A DNA stretch of 38,302 nucleotides from Kiritimatiellia bacterium (GTDB taxonomy: Bacteria; Verrucomicrobiota; Kiritimatiellia; RFP12; UBA3636): NCBI GenBank assembly GCA_017481725.1, contig JAFUOX010000078.1:1-38302 (forward strand), in the 5' to 3' direction. The first letter of the stretch is position 1; each line of letters starts with the position of its first letter. The notes beneath the pieces were generated by a model, which saw nothing but the letters and a program-made list of their open reading frames with translations, did not search any database and was not told the DNA's origin. Made by a program: the position numbers and the translations under genes. Shown here in pieces: positions 2,922-38,302 of this stretch.

Positions 2922-4589
2922 TTACTTAACTATAATCATTGTTGAGTTAATCGATGGACGCCAAGGTCTAATCCACATTTCAGCTTCATTAGTAATCCAT
3001 TTTGATGTGCTATCTGGAGCTTCACCATCATCAGTTACTGCAGCCCAAGTAGAAAGATATGTTTCATTTACATGGTGAGTTAGTTTTCCTGCATTTATAC
3101 CATAGAAAATTTTAACAGTTTCATCAATTGTTGGGCATGGTCCATAATAATAAACATCTGTTAATTTCTGTGAACCATATGCAACTGTGTAAATTTTTTC
3201 AGAAAAATTTTCTAAGCATGCACGATAAGTAATATTTGTTACACCAGAACCTGTAATAATGTATCTACCTACTGACTTTGCAGGTAGCTCAAGCTCCTTT
3301 AGTGAACTGCATTTTGCAAATGTCATTTCTCCAAATTCACATGGAGCAGCATTTTTAGGGAATTCAACCTTTGCTAGCTTTGTACAATTAAAGAATGCAC
3401 CCTTATCCCAGCCACCGGCAATCATTGTTAAACAAGCGCCAAAATATACTTCTGTAATTGGCTGATTAGCAAATACGCTTGCTCCTATTGTTTTTACACC
3501 ACGAAGATATAGCGGTTGCTCAGGGAAGGTTACACCACCAAATGCATTTGCACCAAATGCTTCAAGTGTATCTGGGAACATTGGAGTGATTGATACAAGG
3601 TTTGTGCAATTATAAAAAGTATTATTACCAATAGAGGTTAAATCCTCTGGCAATATGATGCTCTGTAGATCGCCACAGTCTTCAAAAACACCAACAACAC
3701 TAGATGATGAGATAACACCTAGCACATTAGTTGTGTTTGACAAATCAACTGCTGTTAGCTTTGTTTTTGCAAAAGCACCAGCGGACAACATACATTCTGA
3801 TTCAAAGCATAATTCACCAGTTAATGCTGTATTGTAGAATGCCTGTTCACCCACATTGAGTACTGAAGAAGGAAGCATTGGGGTAACTGTTGTAAGCATT
3901 GAGCAATTCTTGAAGGCTCGTGTAGGGATTGACGTTATTGAGTTATTGAGAGTAACGGAGGTTAGGCTTTTACAATTTTCAAAAACACCAGAATAACTAT
4001 TATGACTACCAATGGAAGTTACACCTGACAAATCTGCGGTTGTAACCTTTGTATTTGCAAATGCGCAATAGCCGAGGTCACAATTACCCTCTGAAATATC
4101 AATATCGCAAGCTAGTGCAGAATTTTCAAATGCGCCACGATTAATTTCTAGTATTGTGCTTGGGAAGCTAGAGATATAGGTTAAATTTGTACAATTCCAA
4201 AAAGCAAATTCTCCGATTACTTCAAGGGTATCAGGAAAAATAATTGAGGTTAAATTAGTTGCATTGGCATTACTGGCACCTGTCCATCTATTATTGAATG
4301 GGGAATAAATTTTACGGATTTTCATTTGTAGGTTAGGCAAACCAGAGCCATTATTTGTAATATCGCCAGTAAAATCAAGATTTCTACCATCGGTTGGGGA
4401 TTCAATGCAAGCACCGACCTGAATTCCATAATTACTATCTAGAGAAGAAGCCTTAAATGCCCAGCCTTGATCAGTATCACGTAGAACAAGAGTTTGAGAA
4501 CCATTCAAATCAATTTTTGTAAACTCCCAATCAGCAAAGCTTGTTATAGCGATTAGTGTTAGACTAGCAACGATTAGATTTTTTTGCAT
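2922..4589 (-). CDS. Secreted leucine-rich repeat (LRR_5/BspA-like) protein
   Basis: A 555-residue protein. I chose the ATG at 4589 because GAGGGA lies about 6 bases upstream and the product then begins with a clean signal peptide (MQKNLIVASLTLIAITSFA). A start at 4601 would add four residues. From about residue 120 to 470 it has irregular LRR_5 units of about 23 residues of the type FxNCTNLxxIxxFPxTLxxIGxxAF. These form a curved repeat surface used for adhesion or glycan/protein binding in BspA-like proteins. The C-terminus (WIRPWRPSINSTMIIVK) resembles the tails of the LRR proteins at 30409-32404. It is the first gene of a likely two-gene operon with the deacetylase-like gene. The ligand is unknown. 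Confidence 0.85.
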   Translation of the reverse strand: MQKNLIVASLTLIAITSFADWEFTKIDLNGSQTLVLRDTDQGWAFKASSLDSNYGIQVGACIESPTDGRNLDFTGDITNNGSGLPNLQMKIRKIYSPFNNRWTGASNANATNLTSIIFPDTLEVIGEFAFWNCTNLTYISSFPSTILEINRGAFENSALACDIDISEGNCDLGYCAFANTKVTTADLSGVTSIGSHNSYSGVFENCKSLTSVTLNNSITSIPTRAFKNCSMLTTVTPMLPSSVLNVGEQAFYNTALTGELCFESECMLSAGAFAKTKLTAVDLSNTTNVLGVISSSSVVGVFEDCGDLQSIILPEDLTSIGNNTFYNCTNLVSITPMFPDTLEAFGANAFGGVTFPEQPLYLRGVKTIGASVFANQPITEVYFGACLTMIAGGWDKGAFFNCTKLAKVEFPKNAAPCEFGEMTFAKCSSLKELELPAKSVGRYIITGSGVTNITYRACLENFSEKIYTVAYGSQKLTDVYYYGPCPTIDETVKIFYGINAGKLTHHVNETYLSTWAAVTDDGEAPDSTSKWITNEAEMWIRPWRPSINSTMIIVK

Positions 4590-4608
4590 AATTTCCCTCA
4601 TTTCCCGA

Positions 4609-27219: not shown

Positions 27220-30159
27220 TTACACAACCTCAATTACTATATTCTTTGGTCGAGCATCTACCTCAACTGTCTGAATATATTCAGGACTATTTTCCTTCTC
27301 TGCCAAAAGAGCACCATCACCAAAAATTTGGAATTTAGAAGCCTTCAGACCATTGGACTTTGTAAAGCATACTATTGAACGGCTATTCTCAACAGGAACA
27401 GAAAATATGTCATATATTGGCTCATTTTCAGTATTTTCAAACGTAACCGTAAAATTGCCATAAACGCGTATTGAAATATATCCTCCATTTTGAATTGAGA
27501 AGAGTACCGATGAGCCATTAACCTCCAACGATTCTATTTCCTTACCATCAAGCGTTGTTTGAACAGCTCGAGTTGGAGCAAACGGTAGTGTCAGCTTTAC
27601 ATTCTTCCGCTCAACACCAGACTCCTCAGCAAATCGGAGAAGCAGCGAGCTTTCAGTGTCAACTCGACAGCACATTAGTCGTAAAGGAGCATCCACACAT
27701 AGCTGCGTAGGCTCACGCCCATCGCCAGAAAGCACTGGTTGCGCTAAGCAGCGACTCCAATGTGGAAGAACATCCTCGCAATGTCCATTATAAGGCAAAA
27801 TAGTCAAATGATATGTGCCATGCGCATCTTCTGGAGTACAGAAATTAAGATTATTGGTGCGGTTTGATGCCGCATACAAGTATATGTGTGATTTTGGAAA
27901 ATCAGGAGCTGACAAAAATCGATTGAAGTTTATTTGTGAAAGATGGAACACAGGCATATCTTCAGAACGAATTCCTATACCCCACTCCTCTCCTTCCACA
28001 GCAATCCATTCCTCTGAAATTGTAAAATCCATAGGACACATTTGTGCCTTCTCTGAAACACTATGCGCTCTTCCGCCTGCCAGCTGTGTATAAAATTGAT
28101 GCTTTTCTACATTAAAAGGAAACGCAAAGAAAATGTTTTTCTTGTAGCGATCGTAGAAATCACCCATTAGCCCAATAGCATTTGAGAAGCTTAACTCCAC
28201 ATCAATAGATGGAGCGTGCTTATAAAAAATAAATTGCGATTGTACATCTGCACCGCTTTGCTCCTCAAAGCCTTTTCGTGTGATTACAAAAGCAACATCC
28301 CCCTCCTCCACAGAGAAGCCTCGACACTTTGAAAGCTCGTACGAAAAATCTGCTCCAGTTTTACTTTCTGTTACTGTATAAATATAATCTCCGAGCGCAA
28401 AATCAGAATTCTGATCCAGAAGCTCCTTCCCTTGAATTTTATCAAAAATACTGCTTATTCTCTTTGTTAGAGGATCTGCAGCAACTCGATAAAAATCAGT
28501 TTCAAATGTAAAAGGAGCGGCTTTGCTTTCAGGTATTGGGAGGCTACGCTTTGAAAATTTCATCATTCCCATAGGCGAAAAAGAAAGAGGCTCAGTAATA
28601 ATAGAATTACCAACATTCTGCACAGCAATTCCCTCAGGAATAACATCTAAAGGCAATCTAACAGGATTCTGTCGTGAAGCTGGAAGAGTATTATAAAGAC
28701 CAATAACCTCCCCTGGCATTCCTATTGCAGTCTTAAGCTTCTCTTCAACTAATTCAAGCGCCAGCTCCGCGGAATGCTTCTTTGTAAAAGCAAGATTAAA
28801 GCGATGCATCTTTTGTGGATGCTTTGAAGAGGTTGCCCAACAATGCTCATCAAATAAGCAGCCATAGCGAACCACCCTACGAAAAGCCTCTGCATCATAT
28901 GGCTTCCCATTTATCGCAGCCAAAGCAGAAAATGCCTCCGCAGAAATCATTTGCCTCATAGCACGGCGCTTCATAGACATCCATTCTGGAGAAATTGTGG
29001 CAAAGTCGCCCCATTGATCAATAATATCTCCTGAAACAACAGGAAGCTTATCTATACTTTGCTTTTCGATTTCGGAGAACATTACCGTAGGCAATTCAAG
29101 AGAGAAATGAGGATATTTCCACTTTCTATTCATGTATTCACAAACCGTGAGCAGCATCTTTGTTGGGCGTTCTCTATCATCATAAAAACTATAAGGGAGA
29201 ATATCATAAGGAGCACTCTCTAAGTCATTCAACAATTTACTAAGCACTGCCTCTGTTTTCAGAGCCTTTGATTCATCAAAGAAGAATGTACCCTCTGGAT
29301 ATTGGCGCATAGTGTCGCACCAAATTCTACCTAATTGACCGCGATAGCTTGTTTGATACCACCCAAGCACGCTATCTCTTCCATTCTGCGCCATCCATCT
29401 AAATACAGGAGGAGGATTTCCCGAATGATCAGGCTTTCTAAATCCACCATTTTCAAGAAATCCCACATATCGGATTCCCTGTCCTGCATACGCCGATACT
29501 GTTTGCCATGAGGCTCCTGAAATATCAGTAAAAACAGCTGTTTTAGGAATTATATTCCAGACTGATGCAGCATCCTGAGATGCAAATTGTATTCCACAGA
29601 TTAGCTGCTCTGCTTCTGCCCAATGCGTATGATAACCACAATGAATTGCGTTTAATTCTATCTTTTGCTTTTCAAATAAGCAGCGCAATCTATCGCAATC
29701 GTCAGTAGAAGCATATCGTTGGAATGCCTCCAACCACCAAACATGCTCAATAACATATTTAAAGCCATCATACTCTTCACACAGCCTCATGGCTTCCAAT
29801 AAATATTGATACGATTCATATTCGAGCTTATTAACCCAACCACAGTAGCCTATATCTTCATGAGATGAATATACAAGCCCTATACGCCACCTTTTTGGTG
29901 GACGCAATCTATATGTGTAAATTACAGGTGAATCTTCAAAAGGAGCTACTATTACAGTACAATCATATTCCTTTATGGGTGTAGGAATTAAAACCGTAAA
30001 TGTATCCTGGAACACAGATGCTTCGTATAGCACCGCACCCTGTGCAGAAATCGTAATTCGAAAAGGATTACAATAATCCCAATCAGCTATTTTAATACGA
30101 ATCTGATTTTTTTCATCATGCGTAATAAAAGGTGTCTGTATAAACTCTACTATTCTCAT
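27220..30159 (-). CDS. GH38-like glycoside hydrolase (alpha-mannosidase superfamily)
   Basis: A 979-residue protein. The ATG at 30159 has GGAGCG about 5 bases upstream; longer in-frame starts add a poor N-terminus. Residues from about 88 resemble the GH38 catalytic (beta/alpha)7 barrel. RIGLVYSSHEDIGYCGW corresponds to the HxHxDxGW zinc motif, though the first His is Ser here. The FTDISGAS segment fits the region with the nucleophile Asp (DxFGHS in classical members). The C-terminal 450 residues look like the beta-sandwich part (PVFHLSQINFNRFLS, LTILPYNGHCEDVLPHW). Such enzymes release alpha-mannosyl residues and use zinc. The altered motif means divergent specificity or chemistry. No signal peptide is seen. 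A gap of 249 bases, with no clear promoter, separates it from the LRR genes upstream. Confidence 0.6.
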   Translation of the reverse strand: MRIVEFIQTPFITHDEKNQIRIKIADWDYCNPFRITISAQGAVLYEASVFQDTFTVLIPTPIKEYDCTVIVAPFEDSPVIYTYRLRPPKRWRIGLVYSSHEDIGYCGWVNKLEYESYQYLLEAMRLCEEYDGFKYVIEHVWWLEAFQRYASTDDCDRLRCLFEKQKIELNAIHCGYHTHWAEAEQLICGIQFASQDAASVWNIIPKTAVFTDISGASWQTVSAYAGQGIRYVGFLENGGFRKPDHSGNPPPVFRWMAQNGRDSVLGWYQTSYRGQLGRIWCDTMRQYPEGTFFFDESKALKTEAVLSKLLNDLESAPYDILPYSFYDDRERPTKMLLTVCEYMNRKWKYPHFSLELPTVMFSEIEKQSIDKLPVVSGDIIDQWGDFATISPEWMSMKRRAMRQMISAEAFSALAAINGKPYDAEAFRRVVRYGCLFDEHCWATSSKHPQKMHRFNLAFTKKHSAELALELVEEKLKTAIGMPGEVIGLYNTLPASRQNPVRLPLDVIPEGIAVQNVGNSIITEPLSFSPMGMMKFSKRSLPIPESKAAPFTFETDFYRVAADPLTKRISSIFDKIQGKELLDQNSDFALGDYIYTVTESKTGADFSYELSKCRGFSVEEGDVAFVITRKGFEEQSGADVQSQFIFYKHAPSIDVELSFSNAIGLMGDFYDRYKKNIFFAFPFNVEKHQFYTQLAGGRAHSVSEKAQMCPMDFTISEEWIAVEGEEWGIGIRSEDMPVFHLSQINFNRFLSAPDFPKSHIYLYAASNRTNNLNFCTPEDAHGTYHLTILPYNGHCEDVLPHWSRCLAQPVLSGDGREPTQLCVDAPLRLMCCRVDTESSLLLRFAEESGVERKNVKLTLPFAPTRAVQTTLDGKEIESLEVNGSSVLFSIQNGGYISIRVYGNFTVTFENTENEPIYDIFSVPVENSRSIVCFTKSNGLKASKFQIFGDGALLAEKENSPEYIQTVEVDARPKNIVIEVV

Positions 30160-30408
30160 AAACGCTCCATCAAGACAATATAAACTACTAACTATAAATT
30201 CACTCTCTACTTCGTAGGAACATATATCTATCCACACGTACGATTATGCTACGATAATCAACGATAAGGTGCAACTACTAATTCATGCAGGCAAAAGGAC
30301 AAACTAAATGCAACAACCTCTGCAAGTGGCGTAACAACGATGATTATCCACACATAGCTATTTTGCGGAAGAACAGTTCTACTATTCTTCGAGTAGATGG
30401 TATAAAAA

Positions 30409-31425
30409 TTACTGAATTATTATAGCAAGAGGCATTGGCTTCTTTTCTGGGTCCTGCCACCATTTTAAATTAACAATGCATGACCAATCATTCAAGCTAC
30501 CATCTGCATTCTGCTTACCCATTAAGCCTTCACCTGAGAAGGTTGCAGGGACATCCATATAGAAAACGGTATTTGTTTCTGCAAATTTTGTCCACTCCTC
30601 ACGATTACCCCATTCCATATGTATCGTCATAGCTCTTGATTTACCACCATCAAAAACCGAAGGATCAAATCCCCGTTTAGGGAAACATCTAAAATATATT
30701 TCCTGATTAACCTTAATAGCTCCGTTATCACCAAATGCTCTTCTTCCAGCATACTCAAATACATCAGAGAGCAAAATATAGGACAAATTTGTGCAATTGC
30801 CAAATGCGGCATATCCATCTATTGAAATTAAACCTTTTGGTGCTCTAAATGCAGAAATAGCTGTAGACGCAAAATCAGCCTTAATCGTTGTGAGGCCTTC
30901 TGGCCAATCAATTTCAACATTCAACGCTGTACAGCTAACAAATGCAGGGGAACCAAACGCTGTCAATGTTGATGGCAAACCAGAAAAATTCTTCAACGAA
31001 GGATTTGCTCTAAACGAATCACTAATAGAAACTAGGCCTTCGTTAAGTATCAGAGTTTCCAGATTTAACAAATTACAACATGCAAACCAGTCAACATACC
31101 TCATTGTACTTGGTAGAACCATATTTGTAATAGACAGATTTCCAGAAATAGAATTTCCTCCTATTCTGACAAGAGAATAACCATCCTCTATTCCAACAGA
31201 GAAATCTGCATTACGGAGCAATGTATTATCTATACCATTCGATCCATTGATTATCAATTCCTTGCCAACAGCTGAGACATTTGAAACAACATTTTCAAAC
31301 CCTGTTGAATCTGTCCACGACAAGGTTTTTGCTGTTGGATCATAGGTCCATGCCTCAGTTGAAGCCAAGACTGATATAGAAGCAATTCCGAAAAATGCTG
31401 TAAGCAACAAATTTGATGATTTCAT
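30409..31425 (-). CDS. Secreted LRR_5 protein, tandem paralogue A
   Basis: A 338-residue protein. The ATG at 31425 gives a signal peptide (MKSSNLLLTAFFGIASISVLAS). A conserved N-terminal beta module follows (EAWTYDPTAKTLSWTDSTGFENVVSNVSA), then LRR_5 units at about residues 95-250 such as LSGLPSTLTAFGSPAFVSCTAL. The C-terminal block with REEWTKFAETNTVFYMDVP ends in WWQDPEKKPMPLAIIIQ. The first 50 residues are almost the same as in the gene at 31451, and the DNA of that part is about 90% or more identical, while the centre and tail differ. It is probably exported and surface-bound, with a binding role inferred from the repeat. It starts 25 bases after the stop of paralogue B. Confidence 0.85.
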   Translation of the reverse strand: MKSSNLLLTAFFGIASISVLASTEAWTYDPTAKTLSWTDSTGFENVVSNVSAVGKELIINGSNGIDNTLLRNADFSVGIEDGYSLVRIGGNSISGNLSITNMVLPSTMRYVDWFACCNLLNLETLILNEGLVSISDSFRANPSLKNFSGLPSTLTAFGSPAFVSCTALNVEIDWPEGLTTIKADFASTAISAFRAPKGLISIDGYAAFGNCTNLSYILLSDVFEYAGRRAFGDNGAIKVNQEIYFRCFPKRGFDPSVFDGGKSRAMTIHMEWGNREEWTKFAETNTVFYMDVPATFSGEGLMGKQNADGSLNDWSCIVNLKWWQDPEKKPMPLAIIIQ

Positions 31426-31530
31426 TTTTAATCTACCCAAATGATTCTTTTTAACGAATAATCAAAAACATTGGTTCTGGTGCTCTATCTGGATCACGCC
31501 ACCACACTGTAACCTGAGAACCCCATTTAC
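31271..31530 (-). repeat. Direct repeat from LRR gene duplication, unit 1
   Basis: This block covers the 3' end of paralogue B, the 25-base spacer and the first 50 codons of paralogue A. It matches 32250-32508 at a constant offset of 979 bases with only scattered changes (about 5% in the 80 bases at the 3' end of the gene). The offset equals one gene plus spacer (954 + 25), the signature of unequal tandem duplication. Confidence 0.9.
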
Positions 31531-32404
31531 CATAACTAGAAAAATCCTCTGGCACCGTAAATGTAAACATTGTATTGGTTGATGCAAAATCTCGCCAAAT
31601 TTCACGATCATGCCATGCTAAATGATTTGTGATTGTATTACTATAAACATGGCCACCCATTGGATTTTTTGTCATTCCTTTAGAAGGAAAGCTTTTCCAA
31701 TATACATCACAATTTACATAACTATAGTCAAACCAATCTCCTCCTGCTGTTGTTTCCAAACAAGCAGAAAGAACCACATTTGTCAAATTAGGTGATCTGG
31801 CCAAGCAATTATTACCCATAGATTTAATTCCTAAGCCAATAAATGTATGAATAGATGTATCTATTATACCATAAAATGTAGGACAATTTTCTGGCCAAAC
31901 AACTTTACCGACAATTCCTTTGCTATTAAAACATCCAGAACCAATCTCTTTTAATGTTGATGGCAAATATAATTCTCCTTCAATCGGGCAACCATTAAAC
32001 ACCTGAGAACCTATCTTTTCCAAGCCATCATTCAATTTTAAATATTTTAAATTATAGCACCAACGGAATCTGTCATATCTCAATTCTTTTACCTTTGGAG
32101 GCATAATAAGAGTGGTCACACTTAGATTGTCCTGAAATATACCACTAAACTCCGTAATTTCATAGCCATCGGCAACTGGAACAGAAAAATCAAGTGTTAC
32201 GGATAATGGGTTATCTATATTATTTCCGATTGATAAAGAAGTTCCCTTTGCTGAGACATTTGAAACAACATTTTCAAACCCTGTTGAATCTGTCCATGAC
32301 AAGGTTTTTGCTGTTGAATCATAAGTCCATGCCTCAGTTGAAGCCAAGACTGATATTGAAGCAATTCCGAGAAGTGCTGTTAGCAACAATTTTGATGATT
32401 TCAT
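31451..32404 (-). CDS. Secreted LRR_5 protein, tandem paralogue B
   Basis: A 317-residue protein with signal peptide MKSSKLLLTALLGIASISVLAS. It has the same N-terminal module as paralogue A (EAWTYDSTAKTLSWTDSTGF). A central region of LRR_5 units follows at about residues 95-225 (LNDGLEKIGSQVFNGCPI, LPSTLKEIGSGCFN), then a C-terminal block REIWRDFASTNTMFTFTVP ending WWRDPDRAPEPMFLIIR. GGGGTAGATTAAAA before the ATG is the same leader as in front of paralogue A. Upstream by 25 bases is the stop codon of a truncated third copy (32430), so this gene may have lost its original promoter and leader gene. The ligand is unknown. Confidence 0.87.
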   Translation of the reverse strand: MKSSKLLLTALLGIASISVLASTEAWTYDSTAKTLSWTDSTGFENVVSNVSAKGTSLSIGNNIDNPLSVTLDFSVPVADGYEITEFSGIFQDNLSVTTLIMPPKVKELRYDRFRWCYNLKYLKLNDGLEKIGSQVFNGCPIEGELYLPSTLKEIGSGCFNSKGIVGKVVWPENCPTFYGIIDTSIHTFIGLGIKSMGNNCLARSPNLTNVVLSACLETTAGGDWFDYSYVNCDVYWKSFPSKGMTKNPMGGHVYSNTITNHLAWHDREIWRDFASTNTMFTFTVPEDFSSYGKWGSQVTVWWRDPDRAPEPMFLIIR

Positions 32405-32429
32405 TTTTAATCTACCCCATTGATTCTTT

Positions 32430-32507
32430 TTAACGAATAATCAAAAACATTGGTTCTGGTGCTCTATCTGGAACACGCCACCATACTGTTATCTGAGAAC
32501 CCCATTT
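32430..32507 (-). pseudogene. Truncated tail of a third LRR paralogue
   Basis: The minus strand here encodes KWGSQITVWWRVPDRAPE, then PMFLIIR and a stop. This is the last 25 residues of paralogue B with two substitutions, placed exactly one 979-base unit upstream. Similarity ends near 32508. The frame stays open a little further but reads unrelated sequence without a signal peptide. The rest of the third gene has been lost, probably by deletion or by the join with the ABC permease region. Confidence 0.9.
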
Positions 32508-32778
32508 ACTAAAAAACGTTAACATATCTCTGAATTCTATATGAGCACATTGTAACAGAGATAAAATCACAAACAACCATACTCATAAATTCTTATACTA
32601 AAACATTTTATCAACCATTAATATAAGAGAATATTACCACGTTAAAATATAATATGTCAACATAAAAGCATGGACAAGGAAAATTGCATAATTAAAAGTT
32701 ATGGTATGAATCTGTAGCATTTTATGGTAACATATTGCATTACTTAGAGTAAAACTAGTGTAAAATACAATTTTTTAA
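32508..32778. other. AT-rich junction region upstream of the permease gene
   Basis: A 270-base AT-rich stretch between the decayed LRR copy and the divergent permease gene. It must hold the permease promoter, but TTGCAT (near 32735) and TAAAAT (near 32762) are 20 bases apart, so I do not call it. No gene is supported. Confidence 0.5.
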
Positions 32779-34707: not shown

Positions 34708-34760
34708 ATCCATCCCTCCACTGACACAAACGCCGGCGACAATCATTCAACCCTTAACGG

Positions 34761-34841
34761 AACGCACGAGACGCCAAAGGGACGCAGAGACGCAGAGGTC
34801 GCCGAGGACGCAGAGCAATGACGCCGAAATAAACACTAGCG
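34761..34841 (+). repeat. ACGCAGAG-rich repeat module, copy 2
   Basis: GACGCCAAAGGGACGCAGAG begins the clearest part, followed by further ACGCAGAG-type units and GACGCCGAAATAAACACTAGCG. It matches the first 92 bases of the window in inverted orientation and the core at 38147-38195 in direct orientation. It runs directly into the long-hairpin element at 34832. The interval between this copy and copy 1 holds nearly all genes of the window. Confidence 0.8.
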
Positions 34842-34912
34842 TAGTGAGCTTTGCCTTAATCATTGCTTTATCTTTCGAAGCAATTGAGCAAATCTCATCC
34901 ACTAGTGTGCTC
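34832..34912 (+). repeat. Long-hairpin element (about 80 bp), copy A
   Basis: The ends are inverted (AACACTAGCG left, CTAGTGTGCTCG right). The centre is ATTGCTT-TATCTTTCG-AAGCAAT (34862-34884), and the arms between can pair with small bulges (GAGCTTTGC against GCAAATCTC). The 23-base centre is identical in copy B at 38218-38295. The arms differ between the copies but remain self-complementary. DNA from 34913 to 34983 is non-coding and contains GATGCGAAGGTTT and the small hairpin ATGAAGC/GCTTCAT. Confidence 0.75.
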
Positions 34913-34983
34913 GCCCATGAGTTTATTGAGATGCGAAGGTTTGCCACGCAAAATGAAGCTATGCTTCGCTTCATGCACAAAAC

Positions 34984-35031
34984 TTAACTATCAAACTTGC
35001 ATACTCGCATACTCGCATACTTGCAAACTAA
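34984..35031 (-). repeat. Octamer array, inverted arm
   Basis: Six 8-base units on the plus strand: TTAACTAT, CAAACTTG, CATACTCG, CATACTCG, CATACTTG, CAAACTAA. Read on the minus strand they are CAAGTTTG, CGAGTATG and the like, that is nnAGTWTG. They face the array at 35045-35124 in opposite orientation, 13 bases away. Confidence 0.8.
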
Positions 35032-35044
35032 TTCAATTCTTGTA

Positions 35045-35124
35045 TAGTTGGAGAGTTAGATAGTATGACAGTTTGATAGTATGATAGTATGATAGTATGA
35101 CAGTTAGATAGTTGGAGAGTGAAG
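35045..35124 (+). repeat. Octamer array, forward arm
   Basis: Ten consecutive 8-base units without a gap: TAGTTGGA, GAGTTAGA, TAGTATGA, CAGTTTGA, then TAGTATGA three times, CAGTTAGA, TAGTTGGA and GAGTGAAG. The core AGTWTGA is kept in phase. With the inverted arm at 34984-35031 it could form a long imperfect hairpin. Confidence 0.88.
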
Positions 35125-35157
35125 ATGAGGGTGGCTCTGCCGCCCGGTGTTGCTGGG

Positions 35158-35244
35158 GCGAGAGGTGGCAAGGTGCTAACCATTGTCTCCTCTCGCTTTC
35201 ACCTGAGAGCGTGCTACTGCACGCAAAGGGGCTGAAGCCCCTTT
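35158..35244. other. Cluster of three stem-loops in the repeat island
   Basis: GCGAGAGG (35158-35165) pairs with CCTCTCGC (35189-35196). GCGTGC-TACT-GCACGC occupies 35209-35224. AAAGGGGC-TGAA-GCCCCTTT occupies 35225-35244. The last two correspond, inverted, to the hairpin pair at 112-147. A structured RNA is possible but no promoter is visible, and a mobile-repeat explanation is as good. Open frames across 35033-35525 on both strands encode only repeat-derived peptides. Confidence 0.5.
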
Positions 35245-37731: not shown

Positions 37732-37834
37732 AAACCCCCTCCGTGCCTCCGTTCTCAGAAAAATCACACTACGTGTGCTCCGTGTTCCGCCGAAGGCTTG
37801 AGCGGGAGCGTTTAAATCGTTACACTTGTTGCTT
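37732..37834 (+). repeat. 103-bp CTCCGTG-type repeat, copy 1
   Basis: It starts AAACCCCCTCCGTGCCTCCG and ends in CACTTGTTGCTT. A second copy begins 166 bases later (37898-38000) with about four mismatches. Inside is the small hairpin CACAC-TAC-GTGTG. Related shorter copies are at 35237-35440. It starts about 165 bases upstream of uxuA. Confidence 0.92.
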
Positions 37835-37897
37835 ACGCTTAACACGGAGTACGGAGGACAAGGGAGGAAAAATGCAAGCAATCATTACAACACCACT

Positions 37898-38000
37898 AAA
37901 CCCCCTCCGTGCCTCCGTTCTCAGAAAAATCACACTACGTGTGCTCCGCGTTTCGCCGAAGGCCAGAGCGGGAGCGTTTAAATCGTTACACTTGTTGCTT
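37898..38000 (+). repeat. 103-bp CTCCGTG-type repeat, copy 2
   Basis: Nearly identical to 37732-37834, with differences around CGCGTTTCGCC and GGCCAGAG. The 63 bases between the copies contain ACACGGAGTACGGAGGACAAGG, related to the same CCTCCGT units on the other strand. A frame of about 120 codons runs through both copies but only translates the repeat. Confidence 0.92.
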
Positions 38001-38008
38001 TCGCTACT

Positions 38009-38048
38009 GGAAGATTGGGAGTTTTGGAGATTAGGAGGCTTGAACATG
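38009..38048 (+). repeat. Degenerate octamer array
   Basis: GGAAGATT, GGGAGTTT, TGGAGATT, AGGAGGCT and a weak fifth unit share 8-base spacing and a GGAGnTT core. It resembles the other octamer arrays in period and in the AGTTT core, but with a G-rich variant. This is the least certain array. Confidence 0.45.
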
Positions 38049-38146
38049 TTATATTCATACAGATATTGTTATTTCCCGCAGAGACGCAGAGCCGCAGAGA
38101 CTTGTGTGGTCACTTGAAGTGCGAAGGTTGGACGCAGGGTGCGGAG

Positions 38147-38195
38147 CAGATGCACGTGACGCCGAAGGGACGCAGAGACGCAGAGGACGCAGAGG
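38147..38195 (+). repeat. ACGCAGAG-rich repeat module, copy 3
   Basis: GATGCACGTGACGCCGAAGG leads into several ACGCAGAG units. It matches the inverted copy at 1-92, including GCACGTGA, and the direct copy at 34761-34841. Further CGCAGAG units at 38076-38100 and the module GTGCGAAGGTTGGACGCAGG near 38119-38138 belong to the same island. Confidence 0.8.
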
Positions 38196-38217
38196 CTTGC
38201 GTGGTGGGTTCTGTGAT

Positions 38218-38295
38218 AACACTACCGCTTGTCGTTGCCTTGGTTATTGCTTTATCTTTCGAAGCAATAAGGCAACTTCCAAGCGCTAGTGTGTT
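38218..38295 (+). repeat. Long-hairpin element (78 bp), copy B
   Basis: The left arm AACACTACCGCTTG matches the reverse complement of the right end CAAGCGCTAGTGTGTT apart from small insertions. GTTGCCT and TATTGCTT pair with AAGCAATA and AGGCAAC, leaving a loop TATCTTTCG (38253-38261) and a 4-base bulge. The whole 78 bases thus fold as one hairpin. The centre is identical to copy A at 34832-34912. Confidence 0.8.
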
Positions 38296-38302
38296 CGACC
38301 AC

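Follow-up and report, generated by a model that had tools for sequence, protein, structure and literature searches.

Alignment with orthologues from two related genomes shows that gene A, one of two tandem genes for apparently secreted leucine-rich repeat (LRR) proteins in a Kiritimatiellae genome, is a chimera carrying the 5' end of its neighbour, gene B. Sequence comparison also shows that at least three genes of the relatives (A and C84 of G001, C46 of G002) have exchanged LRR centres across loci and species between ends that stay conserved, with strong results in mosaic tests. The chimeric A and the centre swaps in the genus together support a cassette exchange between conserved flanks, one of the two causes that the initial annotation had offered for near-identical starts beside diverse centres.

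The window, the whole stretch of 38,302 nucleotides that was analysed, is contig 50 of a 2.59-Mb Kiritimatiellae MAG (G000; 104 contigs, 88% complete). It was compared, on selected regions, with two congeners: G001, corresponding to Kiritimatiellae MAG RGIG990 (dairy cattle rectum), and G002, corresponding to RGIG9845 (yak rectum).

Layout of the array and the chimeric gene A

On the minus strand, the array reads from 5' to 3' as a promoter-like and leader stretch, a stretch of no recognisable origin (32515-32582), a tail remnant, gene A and gene B, with a gap of 25 nt between A and B (Table 1). A repeat search identified a direct repeat of 265 nt, whose copies differ at 16 of 265 sites and are spaced by exactly 979 nt, the period noted in the initial annotation. 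It runs from the 3' tail of A across the spacer into the next gene, where it takes in the signal peptide and the first 30 codons of the mature part. Differences between the copies are found in all parts (tail 6/82, stop and spacer 2/28, signal-peptide codons 5/66, mature codons 23-52 4/90). The longest exact run is 52 nt, while 100 dinucleotide shuffles of the 7-kb region reached at most 18 nt.

Table 1. Features of the LRR array; positions are those of the window.
Feature	Position	Strand	Description
Gene A	31451..32404	-	317 aa; secreted BspA-type LRR protein (predicted); chimeric: B-type start to ~32250, A-type body and tail
Gene B	30409..31425	-	338 aa; secreted BspA-type LRR protein (predicted); own start and tail
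Direct repeat copy 1	31271..31535	-	A tail, spacer and start of B
Direct repeat copy 2	32250..32514	-	Tail remnant, spacer and start of A; 979 nt from copy 1, 94% identity
3' tail remnant of a putative lost A-type gene	32430..32514	-	79% identical in protein to the end of A; differs from the A tail at 6 of 82 nt
Promoter-like and leader stretch of the putative lost gene	32583..32662	-	TTGACA-18-TAATAT, leader to an ATG
LRR centre of A shared with A of G001	31680..32257	-	97.5% identity, compared to ~79% in the core genes examined

The starts of A and B are indeed nearly identical and their centres different, identity falling to the level of paralogues just after codon 52. The wider description, constant ends with diverse centres, holds for the shared start and the differing centre only. 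The direct repeat covers the junction between genes, with an A-type tail, the spacer and a B-type start, and does not represent two constant ends per gene, because the 3' end of B differs. The tail of a third gene, placed one unit upstream by the initial annotation, was recovered (Table 1). Upstream of this remnant, 81 nt align with 75% identity to the promoter and leader of an LRR gene on contig C20 of the same genome, ending at its ATG. This leader contains a TTGACA-18-TAATAT site, a type of site no commoner in the region than in shuffles. The leader match and the tail remnant therefore suggest that promoter and tail of a lost gene remain.

In G001 and G002 the orthologues of A start with a promoter and signal peptide of another type (MKKFSICLAML...), which hardly differ between these two genomes, while the start of the B orthologues resembles that of both window genes. 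Window A has a B-type start and changes sharply to A sequence at 32250 (codon 52), which identifies it as a chimera. In a three-sequence test, none of 20,000 permutations reached the value observed for an ancestry switch at this position; the promoter columns in this test are not truly homologous, and the switch in the coding region is plain in the alignment itself. The promoter and start of A in G001 were found elsewhere in the genus only in the G002 orthologue. Those of B in G002 match the G001 orthologue and the two start copies of the window, all other matches being ~20-55 nt long. Divergence along A and B is not uniform. Synonymous divergence rises from 0.11-0.14 in the start to ~0.6 in the centre (pS 0.62, pN 0.48), with a step at codon 52, and such a synonymous step is not attributable to selection on the protein.

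Exchange of LRR centres across loci and species

In the Mfd region, taken as core, the window is 79% identical to either congener, and G001 and G002 are 96.75% identical to each other. Between G000 and the congeners, identity is 94-97% in some accessory genes, both LRR genes and others; genes have therefore commonly been transferred among these species in recent times. A and B each occur as a single gene in either congener, at loci unrelated to one another. The B orthologues (L059:6874-7884 and L060:7790-8800) have an adjacent rhamnosidase-like gene, and their neighbourhoods differ between G001 and G002. Gene number and order thus vary among the relatives; identical number and order, which together with uniform divergence had been named beforehand as speaking against the initial reading, were not found.

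In A of G001, the promoter, signal peptide and 3' end are G002-like, but the centre is 97.5% identical to window A and only ~66% to G002. In C46 of G002, both flanks are 95-98% identical to C23 of G000, and most of the centre is 92-100% identical to C31 of G001. C84 of G001 has ends like those of C23 of G002 and a segment of ~280 nt like C92 of G000. In these pairs (A of G001 and window A, C46 and C31, C84 and C92) one variable segment is common to alleles or species that otherwise differ. In the B orthologues of G001 and G002, bodies of 97-100% identity are combined with signal peptides of 72-80%, pointing to an exchange at the 5' end. These four cases indicate that the same kind of exchange recurs. 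C31 of G001 and C2 of G002, located beside the same flavorubredoxin-like gene, have common ends and centres that differ by ~35-45%. The 5' breakpoints of the exchanges lie at or shortly past the start of the mature protein. Recombination between conserved flanks, as proposed in the initial annotation, is thus borne out by the switch at 32250 and by the centre swaps.

A second remnant, the last 14 codons of a 1266-aa gene, lies behind the LRR gene on C23 of G000 (L102:6305-6350). The 1266-aa gene, glycine-rich and secreted, is intact in G002 (L098:7882-11682).

A 150-nt window of at most 75% identity beside one of at least 93% occurred in 2 of 11 LRR pairs and in 2 of 14 control pairs, the minima being deeper in the LRR pairs (0.55-0.63) than in the controls (0.73-0.75). 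LRR orthologue pairs are for the most part uniform from end to end, and mosaic structure also turns up in some of the neighbouring genes; a greater tendency of LRR genes than of others to recombine is thus not demonstrated. A count of windows resembling G000 (18/47 LRR ORFs, 6/35 controls) was set aside as biased by the choice of regions.

The interval between Mfd and the ABC permease is a variable island: GH38, B and A occupy 27220-32774 in the window, and other genes are found in G002 (C99:4996-16557, 11.5 kb). Further tandem three-gene LRR arrays are present in G002 (L153:2162-6538 and L163:2721-6546), some with nearly the same N-terminus. A third LRR_5 gene of the window (2922-4601) adjoins a polysaccharide deacetylase-like gene (277-2907). 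A dispersed intergenic repeat family was observed at 34764-35200 and 37736-38302 and also near 1-110. The repeat at 34760-35210 has 58 matches in G000 (70-93%), several of which lie at the ends of contigs; matches in the congeners are weaker. The only RNA families in the window are two tRNAs, far from the array.

Origin of the array

The array probably arose from a tandem pair of A and B whose 5' ends underwent unequal exchange, after which the older A suffered an internal deletion. The order of events, which we infer from sequence, would be as follows. A and B once stood in tandem. Unequal exchange at their similar 5' ends, at the motif around W-x-Y-D-x-T-x-K-T-L-x-W ... N-V-V-S-N-V, would have given A - A' - B, in which A' carries the start of B and both junctions are alike. 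The older, upstream A would then have been lost internally, so that its promoter, leader and tail remained. Homologous recombination of the same kind, with related gut species supplying DNA, would swap LRR centres, the likely ligand-binding part, while promoters, signal peptides and C-terminal tails are kept. Through the two direct repeats of 265 nt, A should be open to renewed loss, which would give B with the tail remnant. A single contiguous duplication predicts even divergence over tail, spacer and start, as was found. Neither an intact tandem A - A' - B nor an A - B pair lacking the duplication was found in the relatives.

This origin needs two steps, duplication and then deletion. The main rival needs only one: a local gene conversion without duplication, in which a tract copying the junction (A tail, spacer, B start) overwrote the 5' end of A, yielding the tail remnant and the B-type start together. 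If conversion ran through the conserved motif past the signal peptide, a switch at 32250 would likewise result. However, the upstream end of the tract has no visible homology inside A, apart from a 10-nt chance match, so conversion would require an unusual second end. The leader of the lost LRR gene upstream of the tail remnant also fits a deleted gene better. We therefore regard conversion as unlikely and retain unequal exchange with deletion as the preferred origin.

A dedicated surface-diversity system, a possibility raised in the initial annotation, would use the flanks as recombination sites, store cassettes in the genome and switch them in a programmed manner. Constant ends with exchanged centres in several genes would agree with this, as would the LRR_5 genes, of which each genome has dozens (97, 34 and 59 matches). 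Yet the silent cassettes with the same flanks that were looked for in G000 did not turn up; the only flank copies are the two in the window, and the next match is 26 nt. The array itself contains no recombinase. The G001 and G002 flanks are common to each other, not to many genes within one genome. Given also the uniformity of most LRR pairs and the mosaic neighbouring genes, we consider a dedicated system very unlikely. The observations resemble the outcome of ordinary homologous recombination within a family of surface proteins found in related gut species, with no dedicated machinery seen.

The fragmentation and incompleteness of the short-read MAG might suggest an assembly artefact, but similar mosaics and remnants occur at other loci and in two independent assemblies, and with a longest exact match of 52 nt and 16 differing sites the repeat copies are separable by ordinary k-mers, which makes an artefact highly improbable. 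The other cause initially offered, rapid positive selection acting on the LRR surface, here in an old tandem pair that had not recombined, has practically negligible probability and is refuted as the sole cause by the synonymous step: the recently exchanged centre of window A does differ from A of G001 by 14 non-synonymous and 3 synonymous changes (dN/dS 1.36, resting on ~17 changes), but orthologue dN/dS is ~0.15-0.2 and ancestry switches at 32250.

The encoded proteins and known systems

A and B match Pfam LRR_5 (PF13306) with 52.7 and 65.9 bits, respectively (cut-off 27.7), and both have what appears to be a signal peptide. Most of the LRR genes found carry a start and a signal peptide of their own. 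The predicted structure of A (pLDDT 86.5) places codon 52 in the last of the first beta elements, after which the LRR solenoid follows. In a fold search with this structure, the best PDB match was 4fs7 (E 5e-4, probability 1.00); the global TM-score is low (0.40) because solenoid length and curvature differ. The architecture of A and B comprises an export signal, a first beta element that is conserved, an LRR solenoid that varies, and a C-terminal tail that is short and again conserved. The conserved ends may be taken as the export start and the C-terminal tail, and the centre that is exchanged as the surface for binding.

Most likely, A and B are secreted proteins with a binding role, located at the surface or outside the cell. 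Glycoside hydrolase genes are neighbours of B in the window (GH38-like) and in the congeners (rhamnosidase-like), and of A in G002 (GH2-type); this neighbourhood suggests glycan-related binding. A C-terminal ending of a hydrophobic run plus one residue (such as TTIIIR or PSVIIIK) was observed in 47 of 76 LRR ORFs of the three genomes, compared to 9/68 other secreted ORFs and 3/229 ORFs without signal peptide. This ending may represent a shared sorting or anchoring tail; no sorting-signal model in NCBIfam matched it.

The array is a good example of mosaic surface-protein evolution, a known kind of process, and a clean case of family diversification: the export start of one paralogue joined to the binding domain of another makes a new gene. 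Binding domains also pass between related gut species. If this were general, surface binding of uncultured gut Kiritimatiellae would not be predictable from species identity, and LRR centres would be traceable in metagenomes as mobile units. A more far-reaching reading, unlikely in our estimation, is that the dozens of secreted LRR proteins of the genus form a cross-species cassette pool through which surface binding diversifies, with no silent cassettes involved. The promoter, the export start and the C-terminal tail would then stay fixed, and whole LRR solenoids would move between loci and related gut species. Among the papers searched, none joined Kiritimatiellota and leucine-rich repeats.

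Gene-conversion antigen systems, such as Neisseria pilE/pilS, Borrelia vlsE and vmp and Anaplasma msp2 (reviewed in PMC4534519), resemble the present case in their conserved flanks, variable centre and recombination in short conserved stretches. They differ in that here neither an expression site nor a silent archive was found, and the changes are seen between species, not within a clone. With the BspA-type LRR proteins (Bacteroides ovatus BACOVA_04585, PDB 4fs7; Treponema pallidum TpLRR, 6mlx), A and B share the LRR_5 match and fold, predicted secretion, a multigene family and tandem copies. In contrast to these, A has a short solenoid (317 aa) and a C-terminal tail common to other secreted proteins of the genome, and its orthologues reveal the formation of the chimera. 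The BspA-type family of Trichomonas vaginalis has expanded by tandem and ectopic duplication (PMC2843621). Wolbachia WSP has conserved and variable parts and forms chimeric genes by exchange with foreign DNA, in a genome without silent cassettes (PMC2843615), and the genes described here are alike in all three respects. WSP, however, is a beta-barrel with a single copy per genome, whereas here a multigene family exchanges whole domains, also between loci.
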